A DNA stretch of 64,000 bases from Gammaproteobacteria bacterium (GTDB lineage: Bacteria; Pseudomonadota; Gammaproteobacteria; JAABTG01), in assembly GCA_017999615.1 (NCBI GenBank), contig JAGNLM010000002.1, positions 109,289 through 173,288 on the forward strand, given 5' to 3'. The position numbers were made by a program, and so were the translations under genes. Positions 1,829-28,838 of the stretch are shown here, piece by piece. How positions within the stretch are numbered: the first letter of the stretch is position 1; every line of letters begins with the position of its first letter. The notes below the pieces were generated by a model. It worked only from the letters and a program-made list of their open reading frames with translations. It had not been told where the DNA came from and searched no databases.

Positions 1829-2496
1829 ACGGAGAGCCTTTCGTCGATGCGCGCGAGCTGGGCGGAGCCGCGGTGCAGGTTGTCGATGTTCGTCTGCAGC
1901 TCCTTCACCTGTTTCTCGAGGGACTTCACGTACGGGTCGTCCCCGCCGCGCTGTCCCCGCTCCTCCTTGGCGACGGCCACCTTGATCTCGTGCTCTTTGC
2001 GCAGCCCCTCTTCCAGGTCGCGGCTCTTCTGCATCTTGGCCTGAACGGTGTTGCGCTGGGCCAGCAGCTGGTCCCGGGTCGCCTGGCCCGAGCGGTAGCG
2101 CGTGGCGAGCTGCTTGGACTGGGTGTCGAGGCTGCTGATTTGTCCCCGCAGCTTCTCGTTGTAGGCGACCGCCTCCTGGTTGAGCGCCTCGGCCTGGGCG
2201 ATCTCCGCCTCCAGGAAGTCCTCCTCCCGGGCGTAGTTGGCCTTGCGCTTCGCGATCTCGTTGCCCGCGAGGTAGCCGACCCCGGCACCCAGCGCCGCGC
2301 CGATGAGCGCGCCCTTCTTGTCGCCCGCGGCGGCCCCGATGAGGCCGCCCACCAGCGCGCCGAGGAGCGAGCCCTGGACCCGCGTCGCCGTCTGGTCGTC
2401 ACCGGACGACGAATCCGGGCGCTCGGTCCCGTTCGTTGCCACGCAGCCGCTCAGCAGGGCGGCCACCAGGACTGCGGAAACACTCCGGCTGATCAT
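1825..2496 (-). CDS. tagQ: Glycine-zipper lipoprotein, TagQ-like by position
   Basis: The start is ATG at 2496, preceded by CAGGAGCG; the frame is open further upstream but has no lipobox there. The 223-residue product has lipobox LLSGC (Cys about residue 18). A glycine-zipper segment follows (GALVGGLIGAAAGDKKGAL, about 45-85), able to insert in or pack against a membrane, and then a long coiled coil (about 90-215). It follows the SUMF1-like gene exactly where TagQ follows TagR in the Pseudomonas H1 type VI locus; TagQ is an outer-membrane lipoprotein there. I see no sequence-level proof of TagQ homology, so the symbol rests on context and lipoprotein character. Confidence 0.65.
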   Translation of the reverse strand: MISRSVSAVLVAALLSGCVATNGTERPDSSSGDDQTATRVQGSLLGALVGGLIGAAAGDKKGALIGAALGAGVGYLAGNEIAKRKANYAREEDFLEAEIAQAEALNQEAVAYNEKLRGQISSLDTQSKQLATRYRSGQATRDQLLAQRNTVQAKMQKSRDLEEGLRKEHEIKVAVAKEERGQRGGDDPYVKSLEKQVKELQTNIDNLHRGSAQLARIDERLSV

Positions 2497-2587
2497 CGAT
2501 TCGCTCCTGTTGCTTGCTCGAGCCGCGCTGCGGCTGCACGCGCTCTCTCGGCCTTTGACCATCGTTCGGAACGGGGTTCCCGCCGCA

Positions 2588-6068: not shown

Positions 6069-6829
6069 GCGGGCCCGCACACCGATTCGACCAGGCTCGG
6101 GGAGATGGCACCCAGGGTGCACCGGTAGGTACGGTCGGCGACGTCCCGCACCAGGTCCAGGTCGTGGGTGACCATCACGATGGCAGTCCCGAGCACCTGG
6201 GCGACCGACCGGAAGTCCGCCACCACCGCGCGGGCCCGGGACTTGTCCACCGCCGCGGTGGGCTCGTCCGCCAGCACCAGGGCGGGGCGGTGCAGCAGGG
6301 CGCGGAGCACGGCGACCCGCTGCCGCTCGCCTCCGGAGAGCCGGTGGGGGTGCCGGTCGAGGAGCCGGCCGATCCCCATGCGCTCCGCCGCGCCGGCGAT
6401 CGCGGCATCCTCCCGGTAGCGGCCGTTCATCTTCAGGGGCAGGGCGAGATTGCCCCGCACCGTGAGGAAGGGCAGGAGACCGCCAGTCTGCAGCACGTAG
6501 CCGAGCCGCTCCCGGCGCAACCGGGCGAGGCGGCCCTCGCGCCCCTGCTGCCAGAGCGCCATCACGTCGGTGACCTCGTTCCCGAGGCGGACGCGGAAGC
6601 TCTCCGCGGCGCTCGGGCGCAGCACCAGAGCGAGCATGTCGAGCAGCGTGCTCTTGCCCGAGCCGCTGTCCCCGACCAGGGCGACGAACTCCCCCGGATG
6701 CACCTCGAACCGGGGAACGCGCAGCCGGAAGCCCGTCCCGCCGTGCTCGCGCTCGCGCGTGAGCCCCCTCATCTCGACCAGGGGAGAACGGGCCTGCGCG
6801 TCGGGCGTGGCGCGCACCTCAAGGCGCAT
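6065..6829 (-). CDS. tagT: ABC transporter ATPase, TagT-like
   Basis: I place the start at ATG 6829, 11 bases inside the end of the upstream gene; a longer frame upstream has no signal. The 254-residue protein has a complete ABC core: Walker A GDSGSGKST (Lys59), signature LSGGERQR, and Walker B LVLADEPT followed by VTHD. It is of the LolD/MacB type that partners FtsX-like permeases, and its ATGA overlap with the permease gene marks them as one complex at the inner membrane. Confidence 0.9.
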   Translation of the reverse strand: MRLEVRATPDAQARSPLVEMRGLTREREHGGTGFRLRVPRFEVHPGEFVALVGDSGSGKSTLLDMLALVLRPSAAESFRVRLGNEVTDVMALWQQGREGRLARLRRERLGYVLQTGGLLPFLTVRGNLALPLKMNGRYREDAAIAGAAERMGIGRLLDRHPHRLSGGERQRVAVLRALLHRPALVLADEPTAAVDKSRARAVVADFRSVAQVLGTAIVMVTHDLDLVRDVADRTYRCTLGAISPSLVESVCGPA

Positions 6830-9800
6830 GGGCGGCGGGCAGTCGCTGGGGTGGGTCAAGCAGGAGGCGGCGCATTCCGGCGAGGACGGCCGCCGCGTCT
6901 GCCGGGGCGTTCGCCATGGCGCTGAAGACCTCGAGCGCGCGCAGGCGCTCCTCCTCCGTCGGCGCCGGCTGGCCCGCCTGGCGCTGCGCCATCGCCTGGT
7001 ACTTCTCGTCGAGGGTCGCACCGGGAAGCGAGGCGAGAGTCGCCGACATCTGGGACTCCAGCGTGCGGGACATCTCCTGCATCTGCGTGCGGACACCGTC
7101 CCGGGCACCGGGCTCGGGACCTGGAACCGCAACGACCACCGTGGTCATTCCCACGCTCACCAGTTCGCGGGTCTCGCCGTCGTAGAGCAGCACGCGCACG
7201 AGCCCGCTGTCGCGCGCCTCGTACCGGCGCGTCACCCGGGGCACCTCGGTACGCTGCACCTGCTCCGTGTCGCTGAACTCCCAGACGAACACCGGCCGCT
7301 TCGGCATCCTCAGGGGCGGAAGGCCGGCCTGAATGGCGACCTCGTCCCCTGCCAGGGTGAATACCACTATGGGCATGCGCAGCGCGAGGGGCGCCGCACC
7401 GATGGTGAGCGTGTAGTCGCCCCCCTTGGCGTCGTCTGCATTGGCGACCAGCACGTAGATGCCGTCCTTCGGACGCACCGTGACGGTCACGATGCGATTC
7501 TGGTCGCTGAACGTCGCCACCGGAGCAAGGGCGCTGTCCGCGCGGCGATCACCGGACAGGACGTGCACGCTGGCGCGTTTGTATCCGTCAAGCGGACCTT
7601 CAAGGCGCAGCGGCACGGACCGGGTCTTCCCGGCGGGGACCTGGACCTGCAGACCCCAGGCCTTGGCACGGTGCCCCGCCTTGAGGCTCATCGTCAGTTT
7701 CCCGGTCTCAGACTCGGACTCGCGCAGGAGCGCCCAGGCCGTCATCGCCTCCGCCGGCACCGAGCCGTTGTCGTTCGCTGGCATACCGCTGTCCGGGTGG
7801 AACAGCGTGTGCGCCACGAACTCGTGGAAGTGCGGGTTCAGCCCCTTGCGGTGGGCGCCCTGAAGGTACTCGGACAGGGGATAGAGCACGTCGTGGAGGT
7901 TCCACCAATCGGCGTTCGCCACGGACTCCCACATCGCCTTGAGCTGCTTGCCCGGGTCGCCGGAACGGCCCAAGAGGAAGTCGACGAAGTGCGCGGCCTG
8001 GTAGGCGTGCTCGTCGGCCGTCGCGGTGATGTCGGCGCTGAAGAACTTCGGTTTCACGGTGCGGCTCGGACGGGACTCCTTCCAGACCACGACGTCGCTG
8101 GCGTAGTCCGCCGTGGCGTCGCACCACCAGTCCGCGAACGTCATTCCTCCGATGTCCCAGTAGTACTCGTTCTGCACCGCGTGGAAGAGCTCGTGGGCGG
8201 CCACGCGGCGCAACAGACTGTGCCCCGTGCTGCTCGCCCCCACGTGGATCAGCCCCGAGGCCTTGTCACGGAAGTCCTGCTCACCAAGCGTATTCTCCAC
8301 CAGCACCTGGATGGGCGGCGCGGGCATCTTGAAGCCCGACTCCCGGTAGCGGGCATAGGCATGGTTCAGGTAGGCGCCGAGGTCGCGCAGGAACACCGGC
8401 AGCTTGGGGTCCGAGAGGTAGCTGGGCAGACCGCTGGGAAAGAGCCTGGCGAGGTTTCCGTCGCCCGTATAGATGACCTTGCTTGCCCAGGCCTCCGCCG
8501 TGTTCTCCTTCGGTGGCGTGAATAGCTCACGGTCGTACGCCACCTCGAAATCGCCCAGCGTGATGACACCGTAGCCGAGCGTCTTCATGAACCAACCGAA
8601 TGCGGTGAGGTGCCGGGTCTGAACGGTCACCACGCGCCGGGCGGCGTCGACGTGCGCCGGGAGAACGACCCACTGCCCGTAGTCCTCGTTCCACCAGGCC
8701 ACCTGCAGCGCGCTCGCGCCCGGGACCCCGGCCGGGATCGCAAGGTCCGCGTAGCTCAGCTCCAGGGTCACCGGCTGGCGAAATCGGCTCTGGCCGGTCA
8801 CCGCGACGTCGAGTGCCGCGACGGGCTTCAGCGCACCGTAGGGTGCCGGGGGCGGGTCGGCAACCCGCGAAATCACGATCTCCGCGGGCTTGCTCAGGCT
8901 ACCGGCAGGGAACTGGACGGCGAGGTTGCCGTGGCGGGCGGTCGCCGGCCCTGCCGTCGTGTCGAGCGCCTGACGTGCGAGGGGCTCCAGGCGAAGGGGT
9001 GCGCGGGCCTTCGGAGGCGCATCGTCCGGCGGCGCGCCGTCGACCACTGCAGGCCCGACCGCGACGGGTTGAGGCGCCGGCACCGCCGGCTCGGCGGCTG
9101 GCGGCGGCTGGACGGGTGGCGCGGGTGTCGCGGGTGTCGCGGCTGTCGCGGCTGTCGCGGCTGTCGCGGCTGGCGTGCGGGCGGCCGGGGCCCCGCCGGG
9201 TTGCCCGGCCGCGGGACCGGTGGCGCAGCGGGGCCGCTGCTCGGCCGAGGGCGCCAGCACGAAGACCATGTCCTGGTAGCGATCAGAAACGTAGAGCTGA
9301 CCGCTCGCGTCGACGGTCAGGTCGGTGACGTGCCGAAGGCGCGCCGGACCGCCCGCCCCGTCCTCGCCGCCGAACAGCAGCGGGCCGACCTGGACGAGGA
9401 AGCGCCCGGACGGGTCGTATTTGCGCACCACGCCGTCGTTGTCGCCCACGTAGAGATTGCCGTCCCCGTCGGCGGTGATCGATTCCGGGGTGAAGCCGTC
9501 CACGGTCTTCTCGGACAGGGGCACGGCCGTCACACCCACGACGGACCAGTCGCCCAGCGGCCCGCCGTCGGGGCCGTGCCGATGCACGCGCCCCTTGTCC
9601 CGGTCGATCCAGCTGATGAACCCGCGGGGGTCCACCGCGACCCGCCCCGGGATCGCCGGCCACGCCGCGAGGCGGCTGCCCTCGGGCGAGACACGCCTCA
9701 GGCCCTTGCGGTCGACGACGTACAGCGACCCGTCGGGAGCGAGATGGAGCTTGTCCGCGTCGAACAGCTCGTTCAGCTCGCCCGGGGGCCGGCCGTCGCC

Positions 9801-11278: not shown

Positions 11279-13495
11279 TCAGGGCATGTAGTCGAGGTGC
11301 AGGGGGTAGACCTTCTCGCTCTCCGGGTCGCCCTCGGCGAGCCGCACCCAGGCGTCCACCTGCTCGTTGATGGTGCGGTACTGCTGCAGCTTGCCGAGCA
11401 GGTTCCACTCGAGCGCCGAGCGCTGCTCCGCGGTCATGCTGGCGTAGCGCTCGTCGTCCAGCGAGAGGACGTCGCTCTTGTAGGGCAGGCTCTGGATGAA
11501 CGCCGGCAGCAGCCCGGACTCGACCAGCTTCGCCGAGCGGCCGATGTCCTCGGGGCGCTTCAACGTCTGGCCCGAGACCGCCTGCAGGGCGTCGAAGAAC
11601 TGCATCTGCGTCACCTCGGCCCGCATGAAGGCCTGGACCACGTGGTCGAGGGCCTGCACCAGGCTGCTCAGCTGCTGGCGGGTGACCAGGACGCGCACCT
11701 CGAGCGAGCGGTCCGCGGGGTTCACCAGGTCGCGGTCGAGCGCCCAGGCGATGACGTCCTTCGGCGGCTCGGCGGCCTTGCCCACGTATTCCACGAGCGC
11801 CGCCTCCCAGAGCTGCTCGGTCCGGGCGCCGGACTCGCCGGCAGCTCCCTGGGCCGCCCCGGAGGCCTGGGCTGCGGGGGCCCCGGCGGCTGCGGCCGCT
11901 GCGGCGGGCTGCGTGAGGAGCTCCTCACCGGGCTTCGCCGCCACCGCCCGCGCGAGCCGGTCCAGCAGCGTCCCCGTGACGCTCTCGACCGCCTTCTGGA
12001 AGTCCTCCTGACGGAAGGCGTCCACCGGGACCAGCGCGGACTCGGTGCCGCCGCGGATCCGCGACAGGTGGGCGAACTGCTGCTCGGCCACCCCGTGGTC
12101 CTCGGCCGCGCGCTCGTCGCGCAGGTGGATGGCGAGCAGGTGCACCTGGGCGTCGTCGGCCTCCAGGCGCAGGTCCTTCTCGTCCTTGGAGGTGGTGTTC
12201 TGCGGGTGCCCCTTCGGGTGCGAGCTCGCGTCGCCCACCAGCACGACGAAGCGCAGCGCCCCCGGCTCCCAGGCCGAGCGCAGCGCCTGATCGACGCCGG
12301 CAAACATCTCCTCGGCGTAGTCGAGGCTGCCGACCGTGGTCGCCTTCACCTCGTTGTCCAGGAGCTTCACGAGCGCCGCGGCGTCGACCAGGGAGGGGGT
12401 GAAGTTGCGGGCGGTGTACTCGATGTTGGGCACCTTGGCCTGGGCGTCCCGGTAACCCACGAGCCCGAAGCGGACCCGGCCCTTGATCTCGGGGTTGTCG
12501 AGCCGCTTGACCATCGCCGAGACCGCCGAGCGGGTGGAGTCGATGTAGGGCTGGGTGCTGCGCGTAGTGTCCATCACGAACACCACGTCGAGCTTCAGGT
12601 CCTGCAGGGCGACGCCCTGCGCGGCGTCGCGGGCCGTGCCCGCCTGCTCCACGTACTCCGCGTTCTTCAGCGTGTCGGCGCCGCGCGCGCCCGGCACCGC
12701 TGCCGCCAACTGCAGGTAGCGTGCGTCGTCACCGTCGAGGGTCACGCTGTCGAAGCGCACGATCGGCAGGATGTAGAAGTTCCGCGTGATGTCGACGAAG
12801 CGCCGGGGCTCCACGCTGACCAGGTCCTCTGGCGCGTCCTTCGCCGCGACCTTCTGGTAGAGCGCGTCCGCCTGGGCGGCGCGGTCGCCGGCACCCACCA
12901 CCCGTTTCAAGGACGGCAGGTCGCGGAACATCAGCACGGGCTTGCGGCCGTCCTGCACCCCGCCCGGGTGCGTGTAGGAGACGAGCAGCGCCTGGCGCCA
13001 CTCGAGGACGTCGGCGGCCCGCATCCAGCCCTGGGGCCCGGTGCTCGAGGCACCCACCTGGTACCAGCCCTTCGGGTTGGCAGGGTCACTCACGTCCACC
13101 CCCTCGCGGGCGTACACGTAGAGCGGATGGAAGGCCTTCACGTTGGCCTGGGCGATACCGGCGGGGTTCTCCGCGCGCTCCTTGTAGAGGTTCGACAGGG
13201 GACGCGGCAGCACGCGCAGGGGGAGCTGGGTCCCCGCCTCGATGCAGGGACCCTTGCCCTCGCAGCGCACCGCCGGCTCGTCGGTCGCCGGCCCACCTTC
13301 GAGGGCATCGGCACCGGAGGCGGCGGCCTTCCCGGCCAGTGCGGCTCCCGCCGGACCCACTGCACCCGGAGGGGCCCCGGCGGCGGCAGGCGCCCCAGTG
13401 CCTTCGAGGGCGTCGGCAGCGCCGGCGGCCCAGGCGGCGGGGCAGGTCCCGGCAAGGGCCAGGGTGAGCGCGAGAGCGGTATTCAGGTGGCGCAT
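11279..13495 (-). CDS. Secreted vWA-domain protein resembling the periplasmic part of PpkA
   Basis: ATG 13495 is preceded by GAGGGGAATTGCC. The 738-residue product has a signal peptide (MRHLNTALALTLALAG...AWA) and an Ala/Gly-rich spacer. An SH3-like region follows (about 100-175) with LRVLPRPLSNLY, GWYQVGASS and GWMRAADVLEWRQ. The vWA domain (about 300-490) carries a MIDAS-type motif beginning Asp309 (VMDTTRSTQPYI). A helical C-terminal half (about 540-738) completes it. From memory, PpkA of the P. aeruginosa H1 type VI system has a periplasmic vWA region of similar layout after its kinase and membrane segment. Here there is no kinase or membrane segment. The vWA domain could bind the TagR-like protein or the giant propeller protein. 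The PpkA relation needs alignment. Confidence 0.75.
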   Translation of the reverse strand: MRHLNTALALTLALAGTCPAAWAAGAADALEGTGAPAAAGAPPGAVGPAGAALAGKAAASGADALEGGPATDEPAVRCEGKGPCIEAGTQLPLRVLPRPLSNLYKERAENPAGIAQANVKAFHPLYVYAREGVDVSDPANPKGWYQVGASSTGPQGWMRAADVLEWRQALLVSYTHPGGVQDGRKPVLMFRDLPSLKRVVGAGDRAAQADALYQKVAAKDAPEDLVSVEPRRFVDITRNFYILPIVRFDSVTLDGDDARYLQLAAAVPGARGADTLKNAEYVEQAGTARDAAQGVALQDLKLDVVFVMDTTRSTQPYIDSTRSAVSAMVKRLDNPEIKGRVRFGLVGYRDAQAKVPNIEYTARNFTPSLVDAAALVKLLDNEVKATTVGSLDYAEEMFAGVDQALRSAWEPGALRFVVLVGDASSHPKGHPQNTTSKDEKDLRLEADDAQVHLLAIHLRDERAAEDHGVAEQQFAHLSRIRGGTESALVPVDAFRQEDFQKAVESVTGTLLDRLARAVAAKPGEELLTQPAAAAAAAGAPAAQASGAAQGAAGESGARTEQLWEAALVEYVGKAAEPPKDVIAWALDRDLVNPADRSLEVRVLVTRQQLSSLVQALDHVVQAFMRAEVTQMQFFDALQAVSGQTLKRPEDIGRSAKLVESGLLPAFIQSLPYKSDVLSLDDERYASMTAEQRSALEWNLLGKLQQYRTINEQVDAWVRLAEGDPESEKVYPLHLDYMP

Positions 13496-13530
13496 GGCAA
13501 TTCCCCTCGGGATGGTACGGCAGGCACCGG

Positions 13531-14601
13531 TCACGGCGCGGGGGGCACGTCGATGCCCCGGGTCTTGAGATAGGCCTCGAGCTTCTTCACGCGGGCGGCG
13601 ACCTGGGGGTCGGGGTGCAGGGCCTGGCTCTGACGGTAGGCCTGCAGGGCACCCGGATAGTCACCCGCGCCTTGCAGCCCTTCCCCGTCACGCTGCAGGC
13701 GGGTGGCCTGCTCCCGACTGGCGCCATCCCCGGGGGCGGGGGCAGCGGAGCCGGCCGTGGCCGCGGCAGCCGTCGTTGCGGCCGGGGCCGCTGCGGCGGG
13801 CGCAGTGGCGGCAGGCACGGCCTCGGGCGTCGGGGCCACCGCGGCCTCGGCCGCCGGCGGCGCCTCCCCTCGCGCCCCCTCGAGCTCCTTCAGGTCCGCC
13901 TCCGCCACCCGACTCCGGAAGTCATCCTGGCCCTTCATCGCGTCCAGGAAGCGTTTGTACCAGACCTTCGCGTCCGCCGTGCGGCCCACGTTCTTCAGGG
14001 CCTGGGCGTACGAGAAGCCATACTCCTCCAGGACCTCCGGGGCGACCTCCGGTCCGGCGAAGAGCTCGCCATACAACTCCACGGCCTTCGGCCAGTCCTT
14101 CATCTCCTCGTAGATGAAGACCAGCCGGCGCTTGATCAAGGGCACCCCCTCGGAATCGGGGTAGCGCGCCAGGAAACGCTCGAGCAGTGCCCGCGCCTCC
14201 GGGTACTTCGGCGCATCGTAGGCCTGCAGGTAGAGATTGGACATCCTCCAGTAGGACTCCTGGGCCTGCTCGGTCTCCGGACACTTCTCCATGACCTCGA
14301 GGTAGAGCCGCTCGATGGTGGTCAGGTCGTAGGTGTCGGCCTGGCGGATCTGCTCGAAGAGCGACTTCGCCAGCGCGTTCGGGTCCTGGGGCGCCGGCGC
14401 CTCGCCTGCGGCCTGTGCCGCGCCTCCGGGCACCGGTGCGGGGGCCGTCGCGGGCGCAGCCACCGGGCCGGCCGCGGCGGGCGGGACCGCCGCCGGGTCC
14501 GCCGGCGCGGCGGGCTCGGCCAGGGGCTCCACCCCGAGCGCTGGCCCCACGGCAAGCAAGCCGAGGAGCGTCAAGGTGAACCGGTTGCAGACTTCTTTCA
14601 T
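13531..14601 (-). CDS. Secreted TPR protein, first gene of operon A
   Basis: ATG 14601 has GGGAG seven bases upstream. The 356-residue product has a signal peptide (about 1-23), a Pro/Ala-rich linker (about 24-80), TPR-like helices (about 85-235; ESYWRMSNLYLQA, RRLVFIYEEMKDWPKAVELY, EEYGFSYAQALKNVGR), and a second Ala/Pro linker. It ends in a C-terminal module (about 310-356) containing GDYPGALQAYRQS and VAARVKKLEAYLKT. That last module closely matches the end of the 2,020-residue protein at 21508-27570, tying the two operons together. A periplasmic scaffold role is likely; the partner is unknown. Confidence 0.75.
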   Translation of the reverse strand: MKEVCNRFTLTLLGLLAVGPALGVEPLAEPAAPADPAAVPPAAAGPVAAPATAPAPVPGGAAQAAGEAPAPQDPNALAKSLFEQIRQADTYDLTTIERLYLEVMEKCPETEQAQESYWRMSNLYLQAYDAPKYPEARALLERFLARYPDSEGVPLIKRRLVFIYEEMKDWPKAVELYGELFAGPEVAPEVLEEYGFSYAQALKNVGRTADAKVWYKRFLDAMKGQDDFRSRVAEADLKELEGARGEAPPAAEAAVAPTPEAVPAATAPAAAAPAATTAAAATAGSAAPAPGDGASREQATRLQRDGEGLQGAGDYPGALQAYRQSQALHPDPQVAARVKKLEAYLKTRGIDVPPAP

Positions 14602-14846
14602 CGGAGTCTCCCTTCTCAGCAGGCCCGGCGCGACGCACGCCCTGGGCCCCGGATTCAGCGGCCCACGCCGCGCCGCCTTGAGCACCAGAGTCACCCCGAG
14701 GCCGGTGCAGGGCATCACCCGCAAAGAGAGGCGATGATGGCGCCCTTCACCCCTGCCGCCAACAGGGGCGAGCGGAGTTAGCATGGACACCGGGCGGTCG
14801 GTGTCGCCCCGACCTGCAGGTAGGGCACGACGGTGAGGGCAGGCAG
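14602..14846. promoter_or_regulatory. Divergent intergenic region between operon A and the PH/propeller gene
   Basis: This is 245 bases between divergent starts, the only gap large enough to hold the operon A promoter. A TTAGCAT stretch at about 14777-14783 could be a -10 for the plus-strand gene, but I find no convincing -35. I see no long inverted repeat or coding potential beyond a 17-codon frame at about 14783 without support. Confidence 0.35.
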
Positions 14847-17486: not shown

Positions 17487-20400
17487 CTACTTCCGTTGCA
17501 GGATGGGCGGGAGCTGCACCGGCGCCTCGATCTGGGGGCGGTTGGTGCAGTACCAGTCCTTCTGGCTGTGCTTGGCGGTCACGAAGGAGCCGCCGCCCTT
17601 GCCCTGACCGAGCTTCAGCGTCTTCGCGAGCGCCTCGGCCAGCGTGACCGGCTTGCCCTTGGAGTCCTTCTGGGGGTGCTTGGCGAGCCAGGCGGCCTGC
17701 TCCTGGAGCGCCTTGCGGATGTCGGCGAAGGTCGTCCCGGGCGGGAGCACCAGGCGCCCGGACTTGAGGTCCCGAACCACGCTGATGATCCCTTCCGCCG
17801 CGGCCTGCTGCTGGCCGACCTCGTCGAGGTCCACGCCGGTGATGAGCACCGTCGCGTCGATCTCCACCGAGGCGGAGCCGCCGGTGCCGAGCCCGAGGGT
17901 GGCGGCCAGCTTGCCGCCCAGCCTGATCTTGGTCCACGAGAGCTCAGCGTCGACGGCCGCCTTGCCGCCCGCCCCGTAGCTCACCTCCGCCTGTCCCCTG
18001 GCGGTCGCCTTGAGTCCGAGCGCCGAGAGCGATGCCTCGGCCTCGACCTCCGCCTTGCCGCCCACGAAGACCTCGGCCTCCGCCGAGACGGCCACCTTCT
18101 CGGTGCTGATGACGCCCTCGACCTGCCCCTTCGCCTCGGCCCCCACCTTGGCCGTGGCGGTGACCTTCCCCGCCGCCTTACCGCCGCCCAGGTCCCTCTC
18201 GGCCGAGCCGGTCGTCGTGATCTTGATGATGTTCGCCTCGGCCGAGGCCTCGGCCTTGCCCTTCAACCCGTCGTTGTCTGCAGTGACCTCCCAGCTGCCC
18301 TTGGCCCCCGTCTGGCCGACCTGGACCTTGTGCTCACCCTCGAGCTCGACGCCTCCCACGGTGGTGGCGCCCGAGGTGGACGACGCCGCCTTCTCGTCGT
18401 CCTTGGGCTCGAAGAGATCACCACCCGCGATCTTGATGCTGCCCTTGACCGGGCTGTCCTCGCCCTTCTTTTCCTCGCCCTGGCCCTCGCCCTTCTTGCC
18501 GCTGAGGTCCTTCTCGTAGCCCCACTCCTTGCTGCGCCCCGAGGAGAGCGGCCCGCTGGTCGTGGTGTCCGTGGTGGTGGTCTTGGCGCCCTTGCCGTCG
18601 GTCTCGGTGGTGGTCTCGGTCTGGGTGGTGGTGGTCCCCCACTTGCCGGTGGTCTTCTTGGTCTCGTCGGTAAAGGTCCGCCCCGGGCCTTCCTCCCCGT
18701 CCTTGCCGGTGCGGGTGGTCCCGATGGTGGTCGACTTCGTGTCGGTGACGGTGCCGTCGGTGCCGACCTCGGTACTCTCGGTCTTGGTGTGGGTCCGGCC
18801 CGTCTGGCTGCCGTCCTTCCCGGTCTCGGTGCGGGACGTGCCCTCCGTGGTGGTCGTCTTCGAGGAGCCCGGCGTGTTGGTGAGCCACCCCTTCTTCTCT
18901 GGGGTCGTCTCGTGCTCGGTACCCTTGGTGGTGGTAACGGTCACCTTCTTGCCGTCCCCGCCGGCACCAACGTTGCCGCCGCTGCCGCCGTCGTCGTCCC
19001 CGCCGGCAGGCTTCGTCCCCGAACCACCGGGGCCCCCGTCCACCCCTCCGCCCGGCTTCTGCGCAGTCCCGTCCGCACGCCCGCCGGCACCGGGCTTCGC
19101 CTTCCCCTCGCCGGTGTAGCTGCTGGTGGTCTGGGTGGCCTGGCGAGTCGACCCGTCCGCCCCCACGTGGCTCTTGGTGGTGGTCTCCTCGCTGGTCTTA
19201 CCGCCCCCGGGGGTCTTGTCGCGGGTGGTGGTCCTGTCGGTCCTGTCCACCGACCCGTCGCGGCCGACGGTGGTGCTCGAGAAGCTGTCGGTGCGCTTGT
19301 CGCCCTCGGTGGTCTGGGTCTTCACCCAGCTCGCGTTGGCAGCGCTGCCGGAACTGGTCGAGGTGACGGCCTCCGGCTTCTTCGGCGCCCGCGGCCCGGT
19401 CCCGACCGCCTCGTCGTCGCGCGGCGGCGCCGGAGACAGACCGGCCTTCGCGCGCTCCGCGTCGTTCTCGGCCCTGGCCTTCTCGTTCTCCTTCTCCACC
19501 AGCGCGTTGCGGTCCCGGATCCGGTCCGCCGTGCCCGTCGGGTCGGGCGCCTGGTCGGGCTTGCGCTCCGTCGTCTTCGCCACCTCCTCGCGGATCGCGC
19601 GCACCTTCTGCCCCATGGGCACGGCGGCTTCCTTGGAGTTCTGGAGCTGCTGGTCGGCCTTGCCCAACCACTTCTGGACGTCACTCTTCTGCTGCTCGGG
19701 GCTCGCACCGAGGGCGGTGATCCCGGTCTCGAACTCGTCCTGGTAGTTGCGCAGCTTGTCGGCCTCGTGTGCTACCGGGGAGTCCTGCCCGGTCGCCTCC
19801 GCCGACTTGCTGACGCTCTTGCCCGCGGTCTTGAGCGCCATGTCCCGGGCGAGCTGCTGGGCCGCGTCGCCGCCGGGGTCCTTGCCCTTCTTGAGGTCGC
19901 CCGCGGCGTGGATGAATTTCTTCTCGTTGTCGAGGACGAAGCCCTCGGGGTCGCGCACCGACTCGTCGCTCTTCACCCCGGTCGCCTTCTTGCCTCCCGG
20001 CGTGGAGAAGGCGTCGTGGTAGTCCTTGCGTTTCTCGAGTTGCTCCGGCGTCGGCGGCGCCCACAGCGTGGTGTCGGTACTCTTGTCGATCCAGATCCCG
20101 AGCTCGGGGTCGTAGGTGACGTTCTCCTCGCCGTGCGCCTTCTTCCACTCGGCGGCGATCTTGTCGGCGATCTCGGGCGTCTTGGCGCTGATATCCACGT
20201 CCGCCCGCACCTCCTTGGGGGCGCTGCCGGAGATGTCGATGCTGCCCTTGCCGTACTTCGCTTCCAGCGCCGCCAGTTCCCCCGCGCGGGGATCCTTCTC
20301 CTTGTACTTCAACTGGATTTTCGACTTCTCCTCCTTGTAGCCGTCCAGGGTGGCCTGGTAGTCGGGGTGGGAGGTGTCGATCGAGCCGTCGGGCTTCACC

Positions 20401-20642
20401 AGCTTGGGGTTGGCCCGCACCTGGGCGTGGTACTTCTCCTTCAGCTTCTCGAGCTCGGCCTGCTGCTGCAGCCGGAGCTTCTCGATCAGGGACGGGGTGC
20501 CCTTTCCGGGTGGCTTCTCCTGCGCGGCGGCCGGAAGGGCCAATGCCCCGGCGAGCACCCAGGCGAGCGCCACGCAGAGAAGCCACCGGGCGCGGCCGGC
20601 CCGCGCCCGGGAGACAGGGGGCATCGGGGCAACGCGGTTCAC
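17487..20642 (-). CDS. Exported Thr-rich repeat protein with amphipathic beta C-terminus
   Basis: GTG 20642 overlaps the upstream TGA (GTGA) and follows GAGGG by seven bases; a downstream ATG at 20624 is an alternative. The 1,051-residue product has a signal peptide ending near PAAAQE. The first ~420 residues are charged, Lys/Glu-rich helical sequence. Residues about 420-690 are Thr/Gly/Asp-rich imperfect repeats of about 12-20 residues (TETGKDGSQTGRTHTKTEST; TTTTQTETTTETDGKGAKTT), as in extended surface stalks. About 730-930 alternate Ala/Lys/Val/Glu in short amphipathic strands (GKAEASAEANI; AKGQVEGVISTEKVAVSAEAEV). A short helical C-terminus has one Cys. No enzymatic motif is seen and no named family is recognised. 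Confidence 0.7.
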   Translation of the reverse strand: MNRVAPMPPVSRARAGRARWLLCVALAWVLAGALALPAAAQEKPPGKGTPSLIEKLRLQQQAELEKLKEKYHAQVRANPKLVKPDGSIDTSHPDYQATLDGYKEEKSKIQLKYKEKDPRAGELAALEAKYGKGSIDISGSAPKEVRADVDISAKTPEIADKIAAEWKKAHGEENVTYDPELGIWIDKSTDTTLWAPPTPEQLEKRKDYHDAFSTPGGKKATGVKSDESVRDPEGFVLDNEKKFIHAAGDLKKGKDPGGDAAQQLARDMALKTAGKSVSKSAEATGQDSPVAHEADKLRNYQDEFETGITALGASPEQQKSDVQKWLGKADQQLQNSKEAAVPMGQKVRAIREEVAKTTERKPDQAPDPTGTADRIRDRNALVEKENEKARAENDAERAKAGLSPAPPRDDEAVGTGPRAPKKPEAVTSTSSGSAANASWVKTQTTEGDKRTDSFSSTTVGRDGSVDRTDRTTTRDKTPGGGKTSEETTTKSHVGADGSTRQATQTTSSYTGEGKAKPGAGGRADGTAQKPGGGVDGGPGGSGTKPAGGDDDGGSGGNVGAGGDGKKVTVTTTKGTEHETTPEKKGWLTNTPGSSKTTTTEGTSRTETGKDGSQTGRTHTKTESTEVGTDGTVTDTKSTTIGTTRTGKDGEEGPGRTFTDETKKTTGKWGTTTTQTETTTETDGKGAKTTTTDTTTSGPLSSGRSKEWGYEKDLSGKKGEGQGEEKKGEDSPVKGSIKIAGGDLFEPKDDEKAASSTSGATTVGGVELEGEHKVQVGQTGAKGSWEVTADNDGLKGKAEASAEANIIKITTTGSAERDLGGGKAAGKVTATAKVGAEAKGQVEGVISTEKVAVSAEAEVFVGGKAEVEAEASLSALGLKATARGQAEVSYGAGGKAAVDAELSWTKIRLGGKLAATLGLGTGGSASVEIDATVLITGVDLDEVGQQQAAAEGIISVVRDLKSGRLVLPPGTTFADIRKALQEQAAWLAKHPQKDSKGKPVTLAEALAKTLKLGQGKGGGSFVTAKHSQKDWYCTNRPQIEAPVQLPPILQRK

Positions 20643-21511
20643 GGCGCGGCCCTCTTCGAAAGGGCCTCGGCGGCCTCGCGAAGCTTGGGGTCGGCCTTCG
20701 GGTCCGCCAGCACCGCGCGCAACTCCCGCTCGGCCTCCTTCGGCTGCCTCAGCTTCAGGTACGCCTCGGCCAGGTAGACCGGCAGGCGCGGGTTCGTGCT
20801 CCCGGCGGCCCGGGCCTTCAGATAGAGGTCCCGGGCCTTTTCGGTCTCGCCCCGATCGTCGCGCACCGTGGCCAACAGGAAGAGCACCGCGGGGTCCTCG
20901 GGAGCCGCCTGCACGGCCTGCTCCAGCAGGGGCACCGCCTCGTCGCCCCGCTTCTGCCCGAGCAGGAGCACGGCCAGCCGCTGACGGGCCATGACGTGGG
21001 CGGGGTCGGCCTCCGCGGCCCGGCGCAGGTGCCGCTCCGCCTCGACGACCTTGCCGGCAGCCAGGAAGAGCCGCCCCAGGTTGTACCAGGCCTCGGCCCG
21101 CGCCGGGTCGATGCGGACCGCGGTCTGGAACATCGTCATCGCCTGGTCCACCTGCCCGCGCTGCAGGGCGAGGACACCCAGGTTGTTGTAGGTCTCGGCG
21201 AACAGGGGGTCCGCCTCCAGGGCCTGGTCGTAGTAACGGCCCGCCTCTTCCGCCCGGCCCTGCGCGAGGGCCAGGTTGCCGAGCAGGTTGGCGGCGTCCC
21301 GGTTGCGGGGGTCGGCCTTCAGGATCCCCTCGAGGACCCGCTGCCCGTCCGCGACCCGGCCCTCGTGCAAGGCCTGCTCGGCCTGCCTGAAGCGCTCGTC
21401 CACACCCGCCTCCCCGGCCGCCAGGGCCGGCAAGCCCGCCAGAGCCAACAGCGGCCCCGCCACGAGGGCGGCCCGCACCCGACGCCCGAAACCCTGCCGT
21501 GTCACGCTCAT
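20639..21511 (-). CDS. Periplasmic TPR-repeat protein
   Basis: The 290-residue product starts at ATG 21511, overlapping the upstream TGA. A signal peptide (about 1-31) is followed by consecutive TPR motifs through about residue 285 (for example AAGRYYDQALEADPLFAETYNNLGVLALQRG). It sits between the two giant exported proteins of operon B with overlaps at both ends (ATGA and GTGA), so fixed co-expression is likely. TPR arrays bind peptides; the likely clients are its operon neighbours. Confidence 0.85.
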   Translation of the reverse strand: MSVTRQGFGRRVRAALVAGPLLALAGLPALAAGEAGVDERFRQAEQALHEGRVADGQRVLEGILKADPRNRDAANLLGNLALAQGRAEEAGRYYDQALEADPLFAETYNNLGVLALQRGQVDQAMTMFQTAVRIDPARAEAWYNLGRLFLAAGKVVEAERHLRRAAEADPAHVMARQRLAVLLLGQKRGDEAVPLLEQAVQAAPEDPAVLFLLATVRDDRGETEKARDLYLKARAAGSTNPRLPVYLAEAYLKLRQPKEAERELRAVLADPKADPKLREAAEALSKRAAP

Positions 21512-24500
21512 CGCGCTTTCTCCTGTCCACCCGCGCGCTTCGGCGCGGGAGCGGGCACCCCGCCCGCGTCGACCCGCAGGTAGCTCTCCAGCTTCTTCAC
21601 CCGGTCCCGGACCTGGGGGTTCGGGGCGAGGTTCAGGCTCTCCCGGTACTTCACCAGGGCGCCGGCGTAGTCGCCGGAGGCCTGACGGCGCCGCGCGTCG
21701 TCGCGCAGCCGCTGCGCCAGGTCCCCGGGCGGCAGCGCGAGCCGCGAGAGCAGCGCGCTCGGCGCCTTGAAGAGGTCCACCTCGAGTTCCGGGCGGTTCA
21801 CCGGCCAGAGCAGGCCCTGGTCGGCCACGAGGTTGGCCTGGCGCTTCTCGGCCTCCGTGGGCTGCGTGGTGCGGCGGACGTCGACCGTCAACACCCGCAC
21901 CACTCCGCGCTGATTGGCCACCAGCACCTCGATCGTCTGGGGGCCAAAGCGCAGGGGCAGCTCCACCCGCCCCCCATTGCCCACCAGGGTCGCCTTGCGC
22001 CAGGGACCCCCGGCGGTGCGGGCCCCCACGAGGGCCAGGTCCGCCGGCCCCGCGACCTCCACCGGGACGCTGGAGCCGCTCACCTCCGCCCCCGGTGCGG
22101 GGGATACGATGCGCGCCTCGGGCGCCGCGGCGATCACCTTCAAGGCCAGCTTCTCGCTCGCCACGTTGCCGCTCGCGTCGGTCACCCGCAGGTCGACCCG
22201 GTGGTCCCCCGGCTGGAGCAGCAGGTCGGCGGTCACGCGGCCGGTCGCGGGCGGGAGCTTCTGCCAGAGACCGCCGTCGACGGACACCGCCGGCATCACG
22301 GGCCCCGCGTCGTCACCCACCTCAAGCTCGAGGGTCACGAGAGGGTCCTTCAGCTCTTCCCCGGCCTTCGGCCTGGCGACCTTCAGGGTGGGCGGGGTGT
22401 TGTCCCCCGCCACCTGCATGAAGAACACCGCCTCGTTGTTGGCCCGGTCGAGGTCTTTCAGGGCGTCGTCCGGGTCGGCGACCACGGTCAGGGTGTTCTG
22501 CCCGCCCCGGGCCTGCCAGGGGATGCGCACCAGGACGCTGCCGTGCAGCGGCACCGCCCCGGCCGGAACCCTCGCGATCTCCTCGCGCGCCCCGCCGCCC
22601 TGGCTGCGGAAGAGCGCCACCTCGGCCGTCCCCGGGGACACCGACCCGAGGTTGCGCAGGGCGACCTCGACCGCGACCTCGTCACCCGCCTTGGGCTCGG
22701 CCGGGGCGTGGACCTTGAGGTCGGAGGACGACACGCTCAGGTCGGGGGCGACGCTGGTGACGCCGCCGATGGCCGCCACCGACTTGCGGGCCTCGTCCTC
22801 GGACTTCGCCACCGTCCACATCGGGGTCGCGGTCAGGCGGAACTTGAAACGGAAATCGCTGTTCACCACGTAGTGCCCGCCCCGCAGGTGCTTGGAGCGG
22901 ATCCCGACGCGGTTGTCGCCCGGAAGCCCCGAGTCGTCGAAGCGCAGCGCAGACGGCGGGATGCGGAAGGTGTAGTTGCCTTCCGGGATGACGTCGCGCA
23001 GGCGCCCCACCACCACCCCGTTCACCAGCACGTCGGCGTCGTGCTGCTTGTACTCGCTGCGCCCGTACGGGAGCGAGAAGCCCATCTCCAGCCAGGCCTC
23101 CACCAGGTTGGTCGCGCGCCAGCGCTCGCCCTCGCGGTAGGCCGAGTACTCGAAGATCCCGTCCGCGCCCACGTCCGCGTGCGCGAAGTCGACCTCGCCG
23201 TCGGCGTCGCTGTCGTCGCCGACCCACTCCACGTCGCCGACCCGCTGGGTCCAGCGGTCGAGCCGCCCATCCCCATCCAGGTCCTCGCCGCCCTGGCGCC
23301 TGCCCCAGTCCACCGTGGCCGCGTCCAGGCGCTCCGCCTCGCGGGCCCGGCGCACCAGCTCCGCCTCGCCGCTCCGGGCCGCCGCATCCGCCGGGTCCCG
23401 CCCGGGGAAGAGCCAGACCTCCCGGGCGCTCTCGCCGGCTCCCAGCTTGAACTCGTAGGCGTGCTCGAAGGCGCGGTCCAGGCCGCGCGCCACGAGCCGG
23501 GTCGAGACTCCCGTGAAGCCCTCGTAGAACCGCGGGGTTACGGTGAAGTCCATCGACCCGCGCTCGGGGAGCAGGCCGTGGCGCACCGTGGGCGAAAGGG
23601 TGACCGCGTGGGGGTCGGCGGCCGTCACCGCCAGGTCGGTGACCGCGTCGCCCAGGTTCTGCAGCCGGAACACCCGCCCCGGCCCGACCCTGGCCGGACC
23701 CACGTCCTGCCAAGCCAGCTCCACGTGGGGCAGCTGCACGTGCACCGCGACCTCGGCCTCGTCGGAGAGGCCCTCGGTGGAGACGATGCGGATCGGCACG
23801 ACGTGGTCCGCCGTGTCCACGTCCTGGGCGCTGATCCCCAGCATGAACTCCCGCACCTCCCCGGGACCGAGGGTAAAGGGGCGGTCCTCCGAGCCGTCGC
23901 CCACGAAGCCGACCAGCATCAGCGGGTCGTGGGGCTTGCCGCACTCGAGCCGCACGCTGAGGGGCGCGTCGCCGTTGTTGCGCACGCTCACCCCCACGCG
24001 CTGGTCGTAATCGCGGCGGATGTTGGCGCCGTAGCGGGACTTGCCGAAGGCGAGGCCCTTGACCCGGGTGACCGTGCGCACGGGTCCGGGCTCCTTGCCC
24101 CCGAGGGGCTGGAACTCGTGGGGTACACCGGCCTCGAGCCCGGTCAGCGCGACGGTGCGTGCGCGCCCGCTCTCGCCGACTACCTCGGTCCAGGGCTCGG
24201 TCCCGGCCTTGCGGAACCGGACCCGGGTCTCCCCGAAGCCGAAGGAGCTCCAGGCGACCCGGACGTCTTCCCCGGAGAGCACGGCCCCGTCAGGGGGCGA
24301 GAGCCCGAAGTACTCCGAGAGCTGGAAGTTACGCGTCAGCTCGGCCTTCGCCCCGGCCGCGTCGAAGGCGGTGACCTTGATCTCGTGGGGCCCCGGACCC
24401 AGACGCGCCCAGGGCACGTCGGCCTGGTAGGGGGCCGTGTAGTCGGTGCCCGCCGGCGTCCCGTCCACGCGGAACTCCACCCGGCTCACCGGACGGCCGC

Positions 24501-27500
24501 TGTAGCTGATGGCGATGACGCTGGCCTCCGCCGGCCTGTCGAGCACCTGTCCCTCGCCGGGGGCGTTCAGGAAGAGCGCGATCCCCTCCCGATCCCGGGC
24601 CCCGGTGGCCTGGACCCAGAAGGCCTGGCGCGAGCGCTGGCCCTCGCTGCCGGTGCAGCGCGCCTCGACGCGGTAGAGGCCCTGGCGCGGGAACCGCGCC
24701 TGGGCGGGCTTCTCACCGTCCAGGCGCACCACGGCCTTCGCCTCGCCCCCCAGGTCGACCTCGCAGGAGGCCGGCGCCGCGGCGTATTCGAGCGGGGTGC
24801 GCTGGAAGGCCACCGTCTGGGGGCTCGCGGCGTTGGCGGCAGCCCCGACCGCGGCGGCCTGGATCGCCCGGCCGCGGGTGTCGGCCATCACGAAGTGGGG
24901 CTGGTCGGACTTGCCGTTCTCGCCCCACTCGGAGAGCTCCACCCGCAGCCGGGTGGGGCCCTGGACCTCGACCGGGCGCGACCAGCGGGCCGGCGCGTGC
25001 ACACCCTGCTCGAACAGCATCGCCCCGGTGCGGTCGTCGTAGACCCGGACGTGAACCTCCATCGGGCCGGCCACCGAGAGGGTCACGGTGCCGGCCGCCG
25101 GCATGTCGAAGAGGAAGCGGTCCCGGTCCCCGATATGGTCGATGGTGTAGGCCTGGGCCTCGCCGTCCGCGAGCCGGCGCGCCGGGTCCGCGGCGAGCGG
25201 CCAGCGCTCGGCCGGCTCGGCGCGCTCCAGGCCCACGGTGAGCTCGTAGGGCTCCGGGGAGGACCCGTTCTCGCCCCACTCCCCGACCATCACGTAGTAG
25301 CGGCCGGCGTTGACCTGGGGGCGCAGCTCGGCCGGCTTGCCGGCGTGGGCGCCGACCTCCTGGAGGAGCGCCCGGGAGGCGTCGAAGACCCGCAGGTGCG
25401 TCTCCTGCCCGGATTGCGCCTTGACCCGCAGGTGGCCGGGGAAGTCCACGTCGACGGCGAAGACGTCCCGGTCGCCCAGGGGCAGGTAGGTGCCCCGCAC
25501 GGTCTCGCCCGGCAGCAGCGGCACCGCGCTGTCGAAGCGGTCGTTGCGCTGGGCCGCGTCGAGCTCGTCGGCCGGCTCGAACCAGGCCCGCAGGCCGTAG
25601 GCCGAGGCCGAGGCGGCGTTGTTGCCCCACTCCCGGATCGCCACGTACAGGGTCTCGGGGCCCTCGACGCTCCGGCCGAGCGCGTTGGGTTTCTCGGCGG
25701 GTGCCCCCTGCTCCACCAGCAACGCCCCGGTCCGGTCGAAGACCTGGACGTGGCGCTCCAGGTGCCCGTCGCTCTCCAGCCGCAGGGTCCCCGCGCTCGG
25801 CAGAGCCACCGTGTAGAGGTCCACGTCGCCCCGCGGGAGCAGGGTCGCGCCGACCGCGCCCCCCAGGGGCAGGGTGCGGGCCGAGGCCATCTTGCCGGGT
25901 GCGGGAGCCGGGTCGTCGACGCCGTCGTCCGGCAGGAAGTCGGCCCGCAGCCGGTAGGGGATGAGGGAGGCACTGTTCTCGCCCCACTCCCCGATCTCGA
26001 CGAAGTACGTACCGGCGGGCACGTCGGCGGAGAAATCGAGCGGCTTGTCGCTGTGTGCCCCCTGTTCGACCAGGAGCGCGCCGTCGCCGTTGCGCAGGCG
26101 GGCGTGGCGCTCGAAGGGGACCGGGCGGTCGCGCACCCGCACCTGGCCGGGCCGGGGCAGGTCCAGGCGGTACACGTCGCGGTCCCCCACGGGCCAGACG
26201 AGCCCCGAGAGCTCTTCGCCGAGGCGGGCCGGCACCGCCGCGTCCACGGTGTCGTTCGGCTCCCGCGGGTCCACGGCTTCCTCCCGGGACACGGTGAGGG
26301 TCAGGGTCTTCTCGGGGTCGGAGGCGTTGTCGCCCCACTGAGAGAGCTCGACGTAGAAGGTCCCGGCACCGACCCAGCGCTCCATGCGGTTCTCCTGTGC
26401 GGCGTGGGCACCGTGCTCCTGCAGGAGCTTGCCCTCGCCGTCGCGCAGGCGCAGGTGGGTCGCGAGCGGGCCCTCCGGGGCCACCGTGACCGCGAGGCGG
26501 CTGGGGTGGGAGAGACGGAAACGGAAGAAGTCGTGGTCGCCGTTTCGCGCCACCGTGAGGGTGACCGGTGCGCCGGGACGGACCTCCTGGGCCGTGGCCA
26601 GGGCGTCGTTGGGCTCGACCTCACGCTGGGGCTCGACGGGGTTCAGGGCGACCCGCAGCGGCCCGGCCCCCTCGCCGAGGCTCCCGGGAACGGTGGCCCC
26701 TTCGTACCCCGGAGCTTCGACCCGAACCGTGACCGGGCGCCGGGAGACGGCGACACGGTCGTCGGCCCCCACGAGGTTCGCCTGGCCCACGCGCAGGGCG
26801 TCGAAGCGGGCGAGACCGTCCGCGCCGGTGCGGCCCTCCGCCACCAGGCCGGTGGAAAGGGTCTCGGCCACCCGCACCGTGGCCCCCGCCAGGGCCTTGC
26901 CGGTCACCGCGTCGGCGGCGGCGACCTCGAGCCGTGCGGGCGTCGCCTCCGGGGCGAGCCGCAGCTCCAGGGGGGCGTCCTGGCGCACCTCGACCTGCCG
27001 CGTGACGGCCACGAAGCCGGGGGCCTCGGCCAGGAGCTCGTAGCGCCCGGGCGCGAGGGCCGCGAGCTCGAAGGTGCCCTCCCAATCCGACACGGCCGTC
27101 GAGGGTCCGGCGACCGCGGCCCGCACCTGCAGCGGACGCAGGGAGACGGTGACGCCGGCGAGCGGGCGGTCGAGCCCCTCGGCCAGCACCCGTCCGCCCC
27201 AGTAGACCCGGGCGACGGGGGCGAGCTGGACTTCCAGCGCCGTCCGCGGCCCCGGCGGCACCTCCACCGTCCGGGTCACCGCCTCGAACCGGGGGTGGCG
27301 CACACTCAGGTCATGCCGCCCGGCCGGAAGCCCGTCCACGGTCGCCACACCCGCCGCATCGGTCGACGCGCGGCGCCCGCCCAGGCTGAAGTACGCGTGG
27401 GCGACCGGCGTCGGCTTGCCGTCCTCCCCGACCGTCACCAGCCGCACCGCCAGCGGTCCCGGGGCGAGGGGCTCGGCGCCGCCGACGGGGGCGGAGACCG

Positions 27501-27570
27501 CGGCCAGAGAGAGCGCAAGGCAGAGCGCGCGCGTGGCGGCGCTGCGGGAGCGGTGACGGGCGGACGGCAT
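21508..27570 (-). CDS. 2,020-residue exported multidomain protein (CarbopepD-reg, PPC-like x5, Ig-like, CARDB)
   Basis: ATG 27570 follows GAGGGG. After a signal peptide (about 1-31), residues about 38-330 hold three carboxypeptidase-regulatory-like beta domains with GLPAGRHDLSV and LAPGRYELLAEAPGF. Residues about 335-960 hold five PPC-like domains of roughly 120 residues. Each has a DxDxFxF/Y strand, an LLVEQGAHxxKP strand and a closing (E/Q)WG(E/D/N)N motif. Ig-like and CARDB-like domains follow, including an internal DxDGDGxxD-type acidic stretch (LDGDGRLDR). The C-terminus is a TPR-like module (GDYAGALVKYRES...RVKKLESYLR) shared with the operon A TPR protein. It is likely a surface or periplasmic binding protein. 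No protease domain accompanies the PPC-like repeats. Confidence 0.8.
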   Translation of the reverse strand: MPSARHRSRSAATRALCLALSLAAVSAPVGGAEPLAPGPLAVRLVTVGEDGKPTPVAHAYFSLGGRRASTDAAGVATVDGLPAGRHDLSVRHPRFEAVTRTVEVPPGPRTALEVQLAPVARVYWGGRVLAEGLDRPLAGVTVSLRPLQVRAAVAGPSTAVSDWEGTFELAALAPGRYELLAEAPGFVAVTRQVEVRQDAPLELRLAPEATPARLEVAAADAVTGKALAGATVRVAETLSTGLVAEGRTGADGLARFDALRVGQANLVGADDRVAVSRRPVTVRVEAPGYEGATVPGSLGEGAGPLRVALNPVEPQREVEPNDALATAQEVRPGAPVTLTVARNGDHDFFRFRLSHPSRLAVTVAPEGPLATHLRLRDGEGKLLQEHGAHAAQENRMERWVGAGTFYVELSQWGDNASDPEKTLTLTVSREEAVDPREPNDTVDAAVPARLGEELSGLVWPVGDRDVYRLDLPRPGQVRVRDRPVPFERHARLRNGDGALLVEQGAHSDKPLDFSADVPAGTYFVEIGEWGENSASLIPYRLRADFLPDDGVDDPAPAPGKMASARTLPLGGAVGATLLPRGDVDLYTVALPSAGTLRLESDGHLERHVQVFDRTGALLVEQGAPAEKPNALGRSVEGPETLYVAIREWGNNAASASAYGLRAWFEPADELDAAQRNDRFDSAVPLLPGETVRGTYLPLGDRDVFAVDVDFPGHLRVKAQSGQETHLRVFDASRALLQEVGAHAGKPAELRPQVNAGRYYVMVGEWGENGSSPEPYELTVGLERAEPAERWPLAADPARRLADGEAQAYTIDHIGDRDRFLFDMPAAGTVTLSVAGPMEVHVRVYDDRTGAMLFEQGVHAPARWSRPVEVQGPTRLRVELSEWGENGKSDQPHFVMADTRGRAIQAAAVGAAANAASPQTVAFQRTPLEYAAAPASCEVDLGGEAKAVVRLDGEKPAQARFPRQGLYRVEARCTGSEGQRSRQAFWVQATGARDREGIALFLNAPGEGQVLDRPAEASVIAISYSGRPVSRVEFRVDGTPAGTDYTAPYQADVPWARLGPGPHEIKVTAFDAAGAKAELTRNFQLSEYFGLSPPDGAVLSGEDVRVAWSSFGFGETRVRFRKAGTEPWTEVVGESGRARTVALTGLEAGVPHEFQPLGGKEPGPVRTVTRVKGLAFGKSRYGANIRRDYDQRVGVSVRNNGDAPLSVRLECGKPHDPLMLVGFVGDGSEDRPFTLGPGEVREFMLGISAQDVDTADHVVPIRIVSTEGLSDEAEVAVHVQLPHVELAWQDVGPARVGPGRVFRLQNLGDAVTDLAVTAADPHAVTLSPTVRHGLLPERGSMDFTVTPRFYEGFTGVSTRLVARGLDRAFEHAYEFKLGAGESAREVWLFPGRDPADAAARSGEAELVRRAREAERLDAATVDWGRRQGGEDLDGDGRLDRWTQRVGDVEWVGDDSDADGEVDFAHADVGADGIFEYSAYREGERWRATNLVEAWLEMGFSLPYGRSEYKQHDADVLVNGVVVGRLRDVIPEGNYTFRIPPSALRFDDSGLPGDNRVGIRSKHLRGGHYVVNSDFRFKFRLTATPMWTVAKSEDEARKSVAAIGGVTSVAPDLSVSSSDLKVHAPAEPKAGDEVAVEVALRNLGSVSPGTAEVALFRSQGGGAREEIARVPAGAVPLHGSVLVRIPWQARGGQNTLTVVADPDDALKDLDRANNEAVFFMQVAGDNTPPTLKVARPKAGEELKDPLVTLELEVGDDAGPVMPAVSVDGGLWQKLPPATGRVTADLLLQPGDHRVDLRVTDASGNVASEKLALKVIAAAPEARIVSPAPGAEVSGSSVPVEVAGPADLALVGARTAGGPWRKATLVGNGGRVELPLRFGPQTIEVLVANQRGVVRVLTVDVRRTTQPTEAEKRQANLVADQGLLWPVNRPELEVDLFKAPSALLSRLALPPGDLAQRLRDDARRRQASGDYAGALVKYRESLNLAPNPQVRDRVKKLESYLRVDAGGVPAPAPKRAGGQEKAR

Positions 27571-28830: not shown

Positions 28831-28838
28831 ATTTCCCT

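Follow-up and report, generated by a model that had tools for sequence, protein, structure and literature searches.

A secreted-type protein with five tandem PPC domains and a rare tryptophan loop motif in a conserved gammaproteobacterial envelope gene cluster

A single reading frame on the minus strand (21508 to 27570) of the window (i.e., the whole stretch of 64,000 nucleotides analyzed here; GC content, 0.73) encodes a protein of 2,020 residues, here called PPC5, that carries five tandem PPC domains and belongs to a conserved envelope gene cluster kept as far as Sedimenticola. The window comes from a gammaproteobacterial genome of 2.47 Mb. The repeats, each with an EWGxN-type motif, are a rare subtype of PPC, a domain common in secreted proteins of bacteria. 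The cluster belongs to a known type of envelope module, of which it is an undescribed variant. PPC5 is probably the ligand-binding arm of an envelope-sensing complex. The fuller reading that we prefer, in which a secreted modular envelope protein with an old, fixed five-PPC array has its ligand face coupled to an FtsX-ABC module, is a tentative one, with a little less than an even chance of being correct.

PPC5 has a signal peptide-like N terminus and, at residues ~40 to 300, CarboxypepD_reg, PEGA, and SpaA-like domains that stand ahead of the five repeats. After the repeats come a Big_7 domain, a central region (residues ~1155 to 1591) with DxDxDG-type loops, CARDB and Ig-like domains, and a C-terminal TPR-like tail. 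The protein and its parts are as follows.

21508..27570, minus strand: PPC5 protein, 2020 aa; five PPC repeats, multidomain (Pfam, open reading frame, and ortholog comparison)
26275..26619, minus strand: PPC repeat 1; SQWGDN; EPND present
25921..26274, minus strand: PPC repeat 2; GEWGEN; EPND present; structure predicted
25564..25920, minus strand: PPC repeat 3; REWGNN; EPND absent
25213..25563, minus strand: PPC repeat 4; GEWGEN; RND present
24844..25212, minus strand: PPC repeat 5; SEWGEN; EPND absent
22798..24108, minus strand: PPC5 central region; more conserved part of the protein, 63 to 68% to distant orthologs; no confident fold

The five homologous repeats occupy residues 318 to 432, 433 to 550, 551 to 669, 670 to 786, and 787 to 909 (window positions 24844 to 26619). 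Their motifs, which a sequence-only reading had already listed, were confirmed to start at residues 410, 527, 646, 763, and 880, respectively; each repeat carries [EQ]WGxN, and a scan of the whole protein found no further xxWGxN elsewhere. Local alignments of all ten repeat pairs scored 121 to 229, versus shuffle means of 27 to 29 (300 shuffles; z, 18.0 to 38.5). These z values, together with the columns conserved in 20 of 20 repeats from four orthologs (see below), rule out a chance likeness. Of the strand LLVEQGAHxxKP, which the same reading described as shared, the part common to all five repeats is ExG; LLVEQGAH is exact in repeat 2 only, and repeat 3 has LLVEQGAP. The AF2 model of the central region had a mean pLDDT of 61.0 and a pTM of 0.39.

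The five repeats are PPC domains with the PPC/CBD beta-sandwich fold, as the description "PPC-like" had correctly implied. Whole PPC5 scored 28.9 bits against the Pfam PPC family (PF04151; cutoff, 25.9), with the best stretch at residues 463 to 526 in repeat 2; no single stretch exceeded the cutoff alone. Because the repeats are divergent, a six-frame PF04151 search of the window's own genome missed them, and its sole match was a single-PPC protein (L001). A profile built from 20 repeats matched the binding domains of the collagenases ColG and ColH (5iku, 4.4e-6; 3jqw, 5.2e-5). The fold evidence (i.e., AF2 model and PDB matches) covers repeat 2 only: the model, with a mean pLDDT of 89.4, had a Foldseek TM score of 0.80 to 3jqw and a VIA-align Z score of 14.8 to the same structure (rmsd, 1.8 over 107 residues), and the top folds from the two programs were 3jqw, 5iku, 2o8o, 1nqd, and other PPC/CBD chains. 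A new fold was rejected, since the closest structures were clostridial collagen-binding PPC domains. The PPC5 repeats are like ColG s3a/s3b and ColH s3 in fold, in GDxD, and, for repeats 1 and 2, in EPND, and the tandem use of PPC domains in 5iku (s3as3b) is like the PPC5 array. Unlike ColG and ColH, PPC5 has five fixed copies, has lost EPND from repeats 3 and 5, and has a conserved ExG and EWGxN at putative collagen-contact positions. Pfam revealed no peptidase domain within PPC5, another difference from the collagenases; the protein does lack a protease, as had been claimed, although an S41 peptidase gene lies in its cluster.

The five-fold array as such is not unusual. PPC domains had been supposed to occur ordinarily singly or in pairs, which is wrong: PPC matches were found in 38 of the 150 genomes of a phylum sample, with 10 (G395), 10 (G452), 11 (G467), and 15 (G498) matches in single frames, and a separate search found 7 in a frame of G303. 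The motif, in contrast, is mostly unusual. In 30 PPC loci, 92 strand-like segments were counted, and [WYF]GxN came after none of them; the pattern used for this count takes any strand-like segment in the frame, whether or not it belongs to a certified PPC domain. WGxN was likewise absent from all 16 other PPC rows aligned (15 of the 16 search matches outside the window genome, with L019 dropped for its short match, plus L001); E[YF]GxN occupied the same loop in two (L014 and L018), and L017 has EYYNN. The frames of L014, L017, and L018 also carry HExxH, as in metalloproteases. Given the 92 segments, the lack of W in the 16 rows, and E[YF]GxN in two of them, the W form is a rare subtype of a variable loop. 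The alternative outcome envisaged earlier, that a profile of the repeats simply recovers common PPC domains carrying the same motif, applies only weakly: the W motif itself was found in 0 of 16 rows and its E[YF]GxN form in 2 of 16.

The motifs appear to fall on positions that contact the ligand in a collagen-binding domain. PMC6168687 describes collagenase PPC domains as binding collagen, and PMC4356367 names Tyr970, Tyr994, and Tyr996 of ColG s3b as collagen contacts, the mutation of which is reported there to lower collagenous-peptide binding greatly. In VIA-align, residue 3 of repeat 2 matched number 900 in the 5iku chain, which anchored the numbering of the HMMER alignment; number 970 was then a tyrosine, as expected. 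In this alignment, Tyr970 corresponds to the x of ExG (Q70 of repeat 2), and Tyr994 and Tyr996 correspond to G94 and W96, the last pair lying in an ungapped extension 3 residues beyond the HMMER alignment. The match of motifs to tyrosines comes from sequence alignment and may be one residue off, and repeat 2 has an aromatic residue at one of the three positions. The ColH alignment (E value, 0.069; not significant) pairs W with F and has a gap after W. With ExG and EWG thus placed on the collagen-contact tyrosine positions of ColG, W, E, and G would lie on the ligand-contact face of the predicted PPC fold, which would support a binding face without pointing to collagen as what is bound. The placement of the motifs at contact positions makes binding by the PPC5 repeats more plausible; the proposed new binding repeat is a rare subtype, with a fold that is not new.

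The main rival to a ligand-binding reading is that EWGxN and ExG are structural, with W packing on the beta-sandwich and E and N capping the last hairpin, so that the array would serve as a stiff spacer or scaffold and have no ligand of its own. The motif does lie in the loop that joins the last two model strands (87 to 95 and 104 to 114), E[YF]GxN occurs in that loop in two of the 16 other rows, PPC arrays are present in other large proteins, and all repeats retain the motif, even those without EPND. However, the family features are present in ordinary PPC domains that lack the motif (0 of 92 segments), so the motif is not required for folding, and its positions coincide with the ligand contacts of collagen-binding domains. 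We consider the structural explanation rather unlikely, while regarding it as the strongest competitor.

A role of the W motif in calcium binding, which had been suggested for the array, is unlikely. In EPND/GDxD, which we take to be the calcium site of PPC domains, the GDxD aspartates are present in 20 of 20 repeats, and EPN is present in repeats 1 and 2 only. Since EPND is kept in repeats 1 and 2 only while the W motif persists where EPND is gone, calcium binding via EWGxN was rejected.

The array is old. A scan of a one-genome-per-species collection with repeat patterns revealed three loci, in a sister species (an uncultured Ectothiorhodospiraceae bacterium), the MAG CSMAG_1671, and Sedimenticola sp. 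BM503, whose PPC5 orthologs match at 91%, 48%, and 51% over the protein, respectively; the scan took exact matches to two degenerate peptide patterns derived from the window and the sister, which distant orthologs can escape. Every ortholog found has five repeats (20 repeats in four proteins, the window protein included). Seven columns are invariant in all 20: both aspartates of GDxD, the E and G of ExG, and the W, G, and N of WGxN. In a tree, each repeat clustered with its counterparts at the same position (R1 with R1, for example), which took 4 changes, the minimum possible; therefore, the array was complete before the four lineages split. This bears on the explanation that the repeats are plain PPC domains sharing the motif merely through recent duplication. 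Their PPC homology (Pfam) would suit it, but self-BLASTN of the window at 1e-6 gave no DNA match between repeats, and repeats that are 30 to 41% identical to repeat 2 nevertheless cluster by position across species. Recent tandem duplication is thus contradicted by both the tree and the BLASTN result, and we regard this explanation as very improbable.

The central region was matched in 2 of 369 class genomes (own genome and one distant partial match) and in 3 of 349 phylum genomes, both samples being draws from, not the whole of, these groups. The repeat array had no match in plasmids or phages, the plasmid match of whole PPC5 was limited to residues 70 to 302 (the carboxypeptidase-regulatory part; in Priestia), and the central region had no relative in viral contigs; on these grounds, mobile cargo was rejected. 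The distant orthologs (L008, 1425 to 7679; L009, 8480 to 14794) have an additional Cys-rich insert, CREWGxNCxKPAADxxC..., among their N-terminal domains; it holds an EWGxN of its own and is absent from the window protein.

The genes that accompany PPC5 in the window are as follows.

20639..21511, minus strand: TPRb, secreted-type TPR protein; conserved neighbor of PPC5
17487..20639 (start approximate), minus strand: CTNRP protein, Thr-rich with a DWYCTNRP tail; no Pfam family; conserved neighbor of PPC5
13531..14604 (start approximate), minus strand: TPRa, TPR protein; tail like the PPC5 tail
11279..13534, minus strand: vWA protein, 751 aa; signal peptide-like start; no kinase domain
6065..6830 (start approximate), minus strand: ABC ATPase (Pfam ABC_tran); TagT-like by position
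4242..6122, minus strand: FtsX-type permease (Pfam FtsX); TagS-like by position
2588..4252 (start approximate), minus strand: SUMF1/FGE-like protein (Pfam FGE-sulfatase); TagR-like by position
1825..2508 (start approximate), minus strand: glycine-zipper lipoprotein (Rick_17kDa_Anti match); TagQ-like
1283..1828, minus strand: coiled-coil lipoprotein
169..1278, minus strand: S41 peptidase (C-terminal processing type)

The Sedimenticola cluster runs TPRa-TPRb-CTNRP-PPC5-vWA-ABC-FtsX-SUMF1-glycine zipper-coiled coil-S41. CSMAG_1671 and the sister species have many of the same genes, in each case spread over two contigs, to the extent that these contigs cover the locus. This conservation bears on the alternative that PPC5 acts as a surface adhesin or matrix protein for collagen-like or glycan ligands and lies beside an envelope module by accident. 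Its make-up of CarboxypepD_reg, PPC, Ig, and CARDB modules is that of many surface proteins, and the collagen binding reported for collagenase PPC domains (PMC6168687) would fit. However, the whole cluster is co-conserved, the C-terminal tail of PPC5 resembles that of TPRa, and no sorting or anchor signal was noticed in PPC5, and we consider this alternative improbable.

A functional tie between PPC5 and the CTNRP protein, which was matched in 1 of 298 class genomes (own), is hinted at by a distant homolog of the central region (L108, in G608) that joins this region and DWYCTNRP, the CTNRP tail motif, in one frame. Both L108 and L109 (G058) are large Ig- or CARDB-like proteins sharing the central region. 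Two further genes lie within the cluster. At 6819 to 11204 (minus strand), a 1,461-aa protein with NHL repeats has a weak match to an MXAN_6640-type HExxH metalloprotease (35.7 bits; cutoff, 140); in the window and the sister species its gene separates vWA from ABC, whereas Sedimenticola lacks it at that place. On the opposite strand (14847 to 17435, plus), an 862-aa protein with no Pfam or NCBIfam match shows, by eye, membrane segments and then a beta-propeller-like part.

The core of the cluster resembles the TagQRST/vWA module seen beside SrfABC and type VI secretion (T6SS) genes, neither of which was found here. With the TagQRST/PpkA system of the H1-T6SS of Pseudomonas aeruginosa it shares an ABC ATPase, an FtsX permease, a SUMF1-like protein (as we take TagR to be), a 17-kDa-antigen/glycine-zipper lipoprotein, and a vWA protein in one locus. 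Unlike that system, it has extra S41, CTNRP, TPR, and PPC5 genes, its vWA protein has no Pfam kinase match (the kinase gene at 38670 to 40004 lies outside the cluster), and TssK (PF05936) was not found in its genome in a search with a positive control in Escherichia coli. A role as a T6SS regulator was rejected given the TssK result, and, with neither a vWA kinase nor TssK, the comparison with TagQRST offers no known output for this cluster. PMC3608642 likens TagQ to a 17-kDa-type antigen and describes a neighborhood of srfB, srfC, tagQ, ppkA, and tagR/S/T in oral, host-associated Deltaproteobacteria; the SrfABC-Tag link itself is thus already known. PMC6657622 assigns an envelope-sensor role to TagQ-TagR and an ABC-transporter role to TagS-TagT, both acting on the T6SS.

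vWA homologs were found in 26 of 369 class genomes. In 10 regions from these genomes, own second copy included (two contigs ended near the module), vWA, ABC, and FtsX were contiguous in all 10, adjacent SrfB and SrfC were present in 2, and SUMF1 was detected in 2. The second vWA-ABC-FtsX module of the own genome (L083, G000:C16) has no PPC5, CTNRP, or SrfB/SrfC detected nearby. The window had no match to SrfB or SrfC; SrfB was not found in the own genome in a search whose control gave no match either. The SrfABC locus of Enterobacter sp. 638 plasmid pENTE01 reads SrfA-SrfB-SrfC-hypothetical-vWA-ABC-FtsX-SUMF1, then two small genes; it shares with the window cluster the order vWA-ABC-FtsX-SUMF1 and the two small genes that follow, but no PPC5 or CTNRP match was found in the pENTE01 stretch. 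An Azospirillum brasilense plasmid (L110) carries vWA-ABC-FtsX-SUMF1-glycine zipper-coiled coil-S41, seven genes in the order of Sedimenticola, but no PPC5, CTNRP, or TPR homolog was detected within 30 kb. On a Thiodictyon plasmid, FtsX and SUMF1 genes lie near VgrG and PAAR genes. We recognized no paper in the open-license literature on the PPC5 cluster or on a PPC-FtsX-vWA association.

Under the preferred reading, each PPC domain would present an aromatic-acidic patch, since W, E, and G are predicted to lie on the face that contacts ligand in collagen-binding PPC domains. The array might then bind with avidity, either to a ligand that is repetitive or polymeric or to a protein partner. Its binding state could be coupled by the vWA/SUMF1/lipoprotein set to the FtsX-ABC pair; as has been proposed for TagQRST, this pair would transmit a signal or a mechanical stroke from one side of the inner membrane to the other. 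The CTNRP and TPR proteins may be dedicated partners of PPC5. More speculatively, the cluster may be a third kind of envelope-sensing machine built on vWA/SUMF1/FtsX-ABC, alongside those of T6SS and SrfABC, with PPC5 as its receptor arm and these dedicated partners; we give this possibility about one chance in three. The cluster links three subjects usually treated apart (PPC domains, the TagQRST signaling module, and SrfABC loci). Should the vWA-SUMF1-FtsX-ABC core prove to be a general envelope sensor whose partners can be exchanged, the PPC5 cluster would allow ligand arm and output to be tested outside T6SS and SrfABC. The PPC motif, at positions matching known ligand contacts, is a simple test point.

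PADLOC detected no defense system, its matches being ABC-ATPase-type ones and one weak coiled-coil match. A repeat of ~90 bases is in tandem at window positions 1 to 220 (130 bases, 99%, shift of 90) and occurs again at 28744 to 28837 (93%); it is imperfectly palindromic at 28730 to 28830 and extends into the ends of reading frames.
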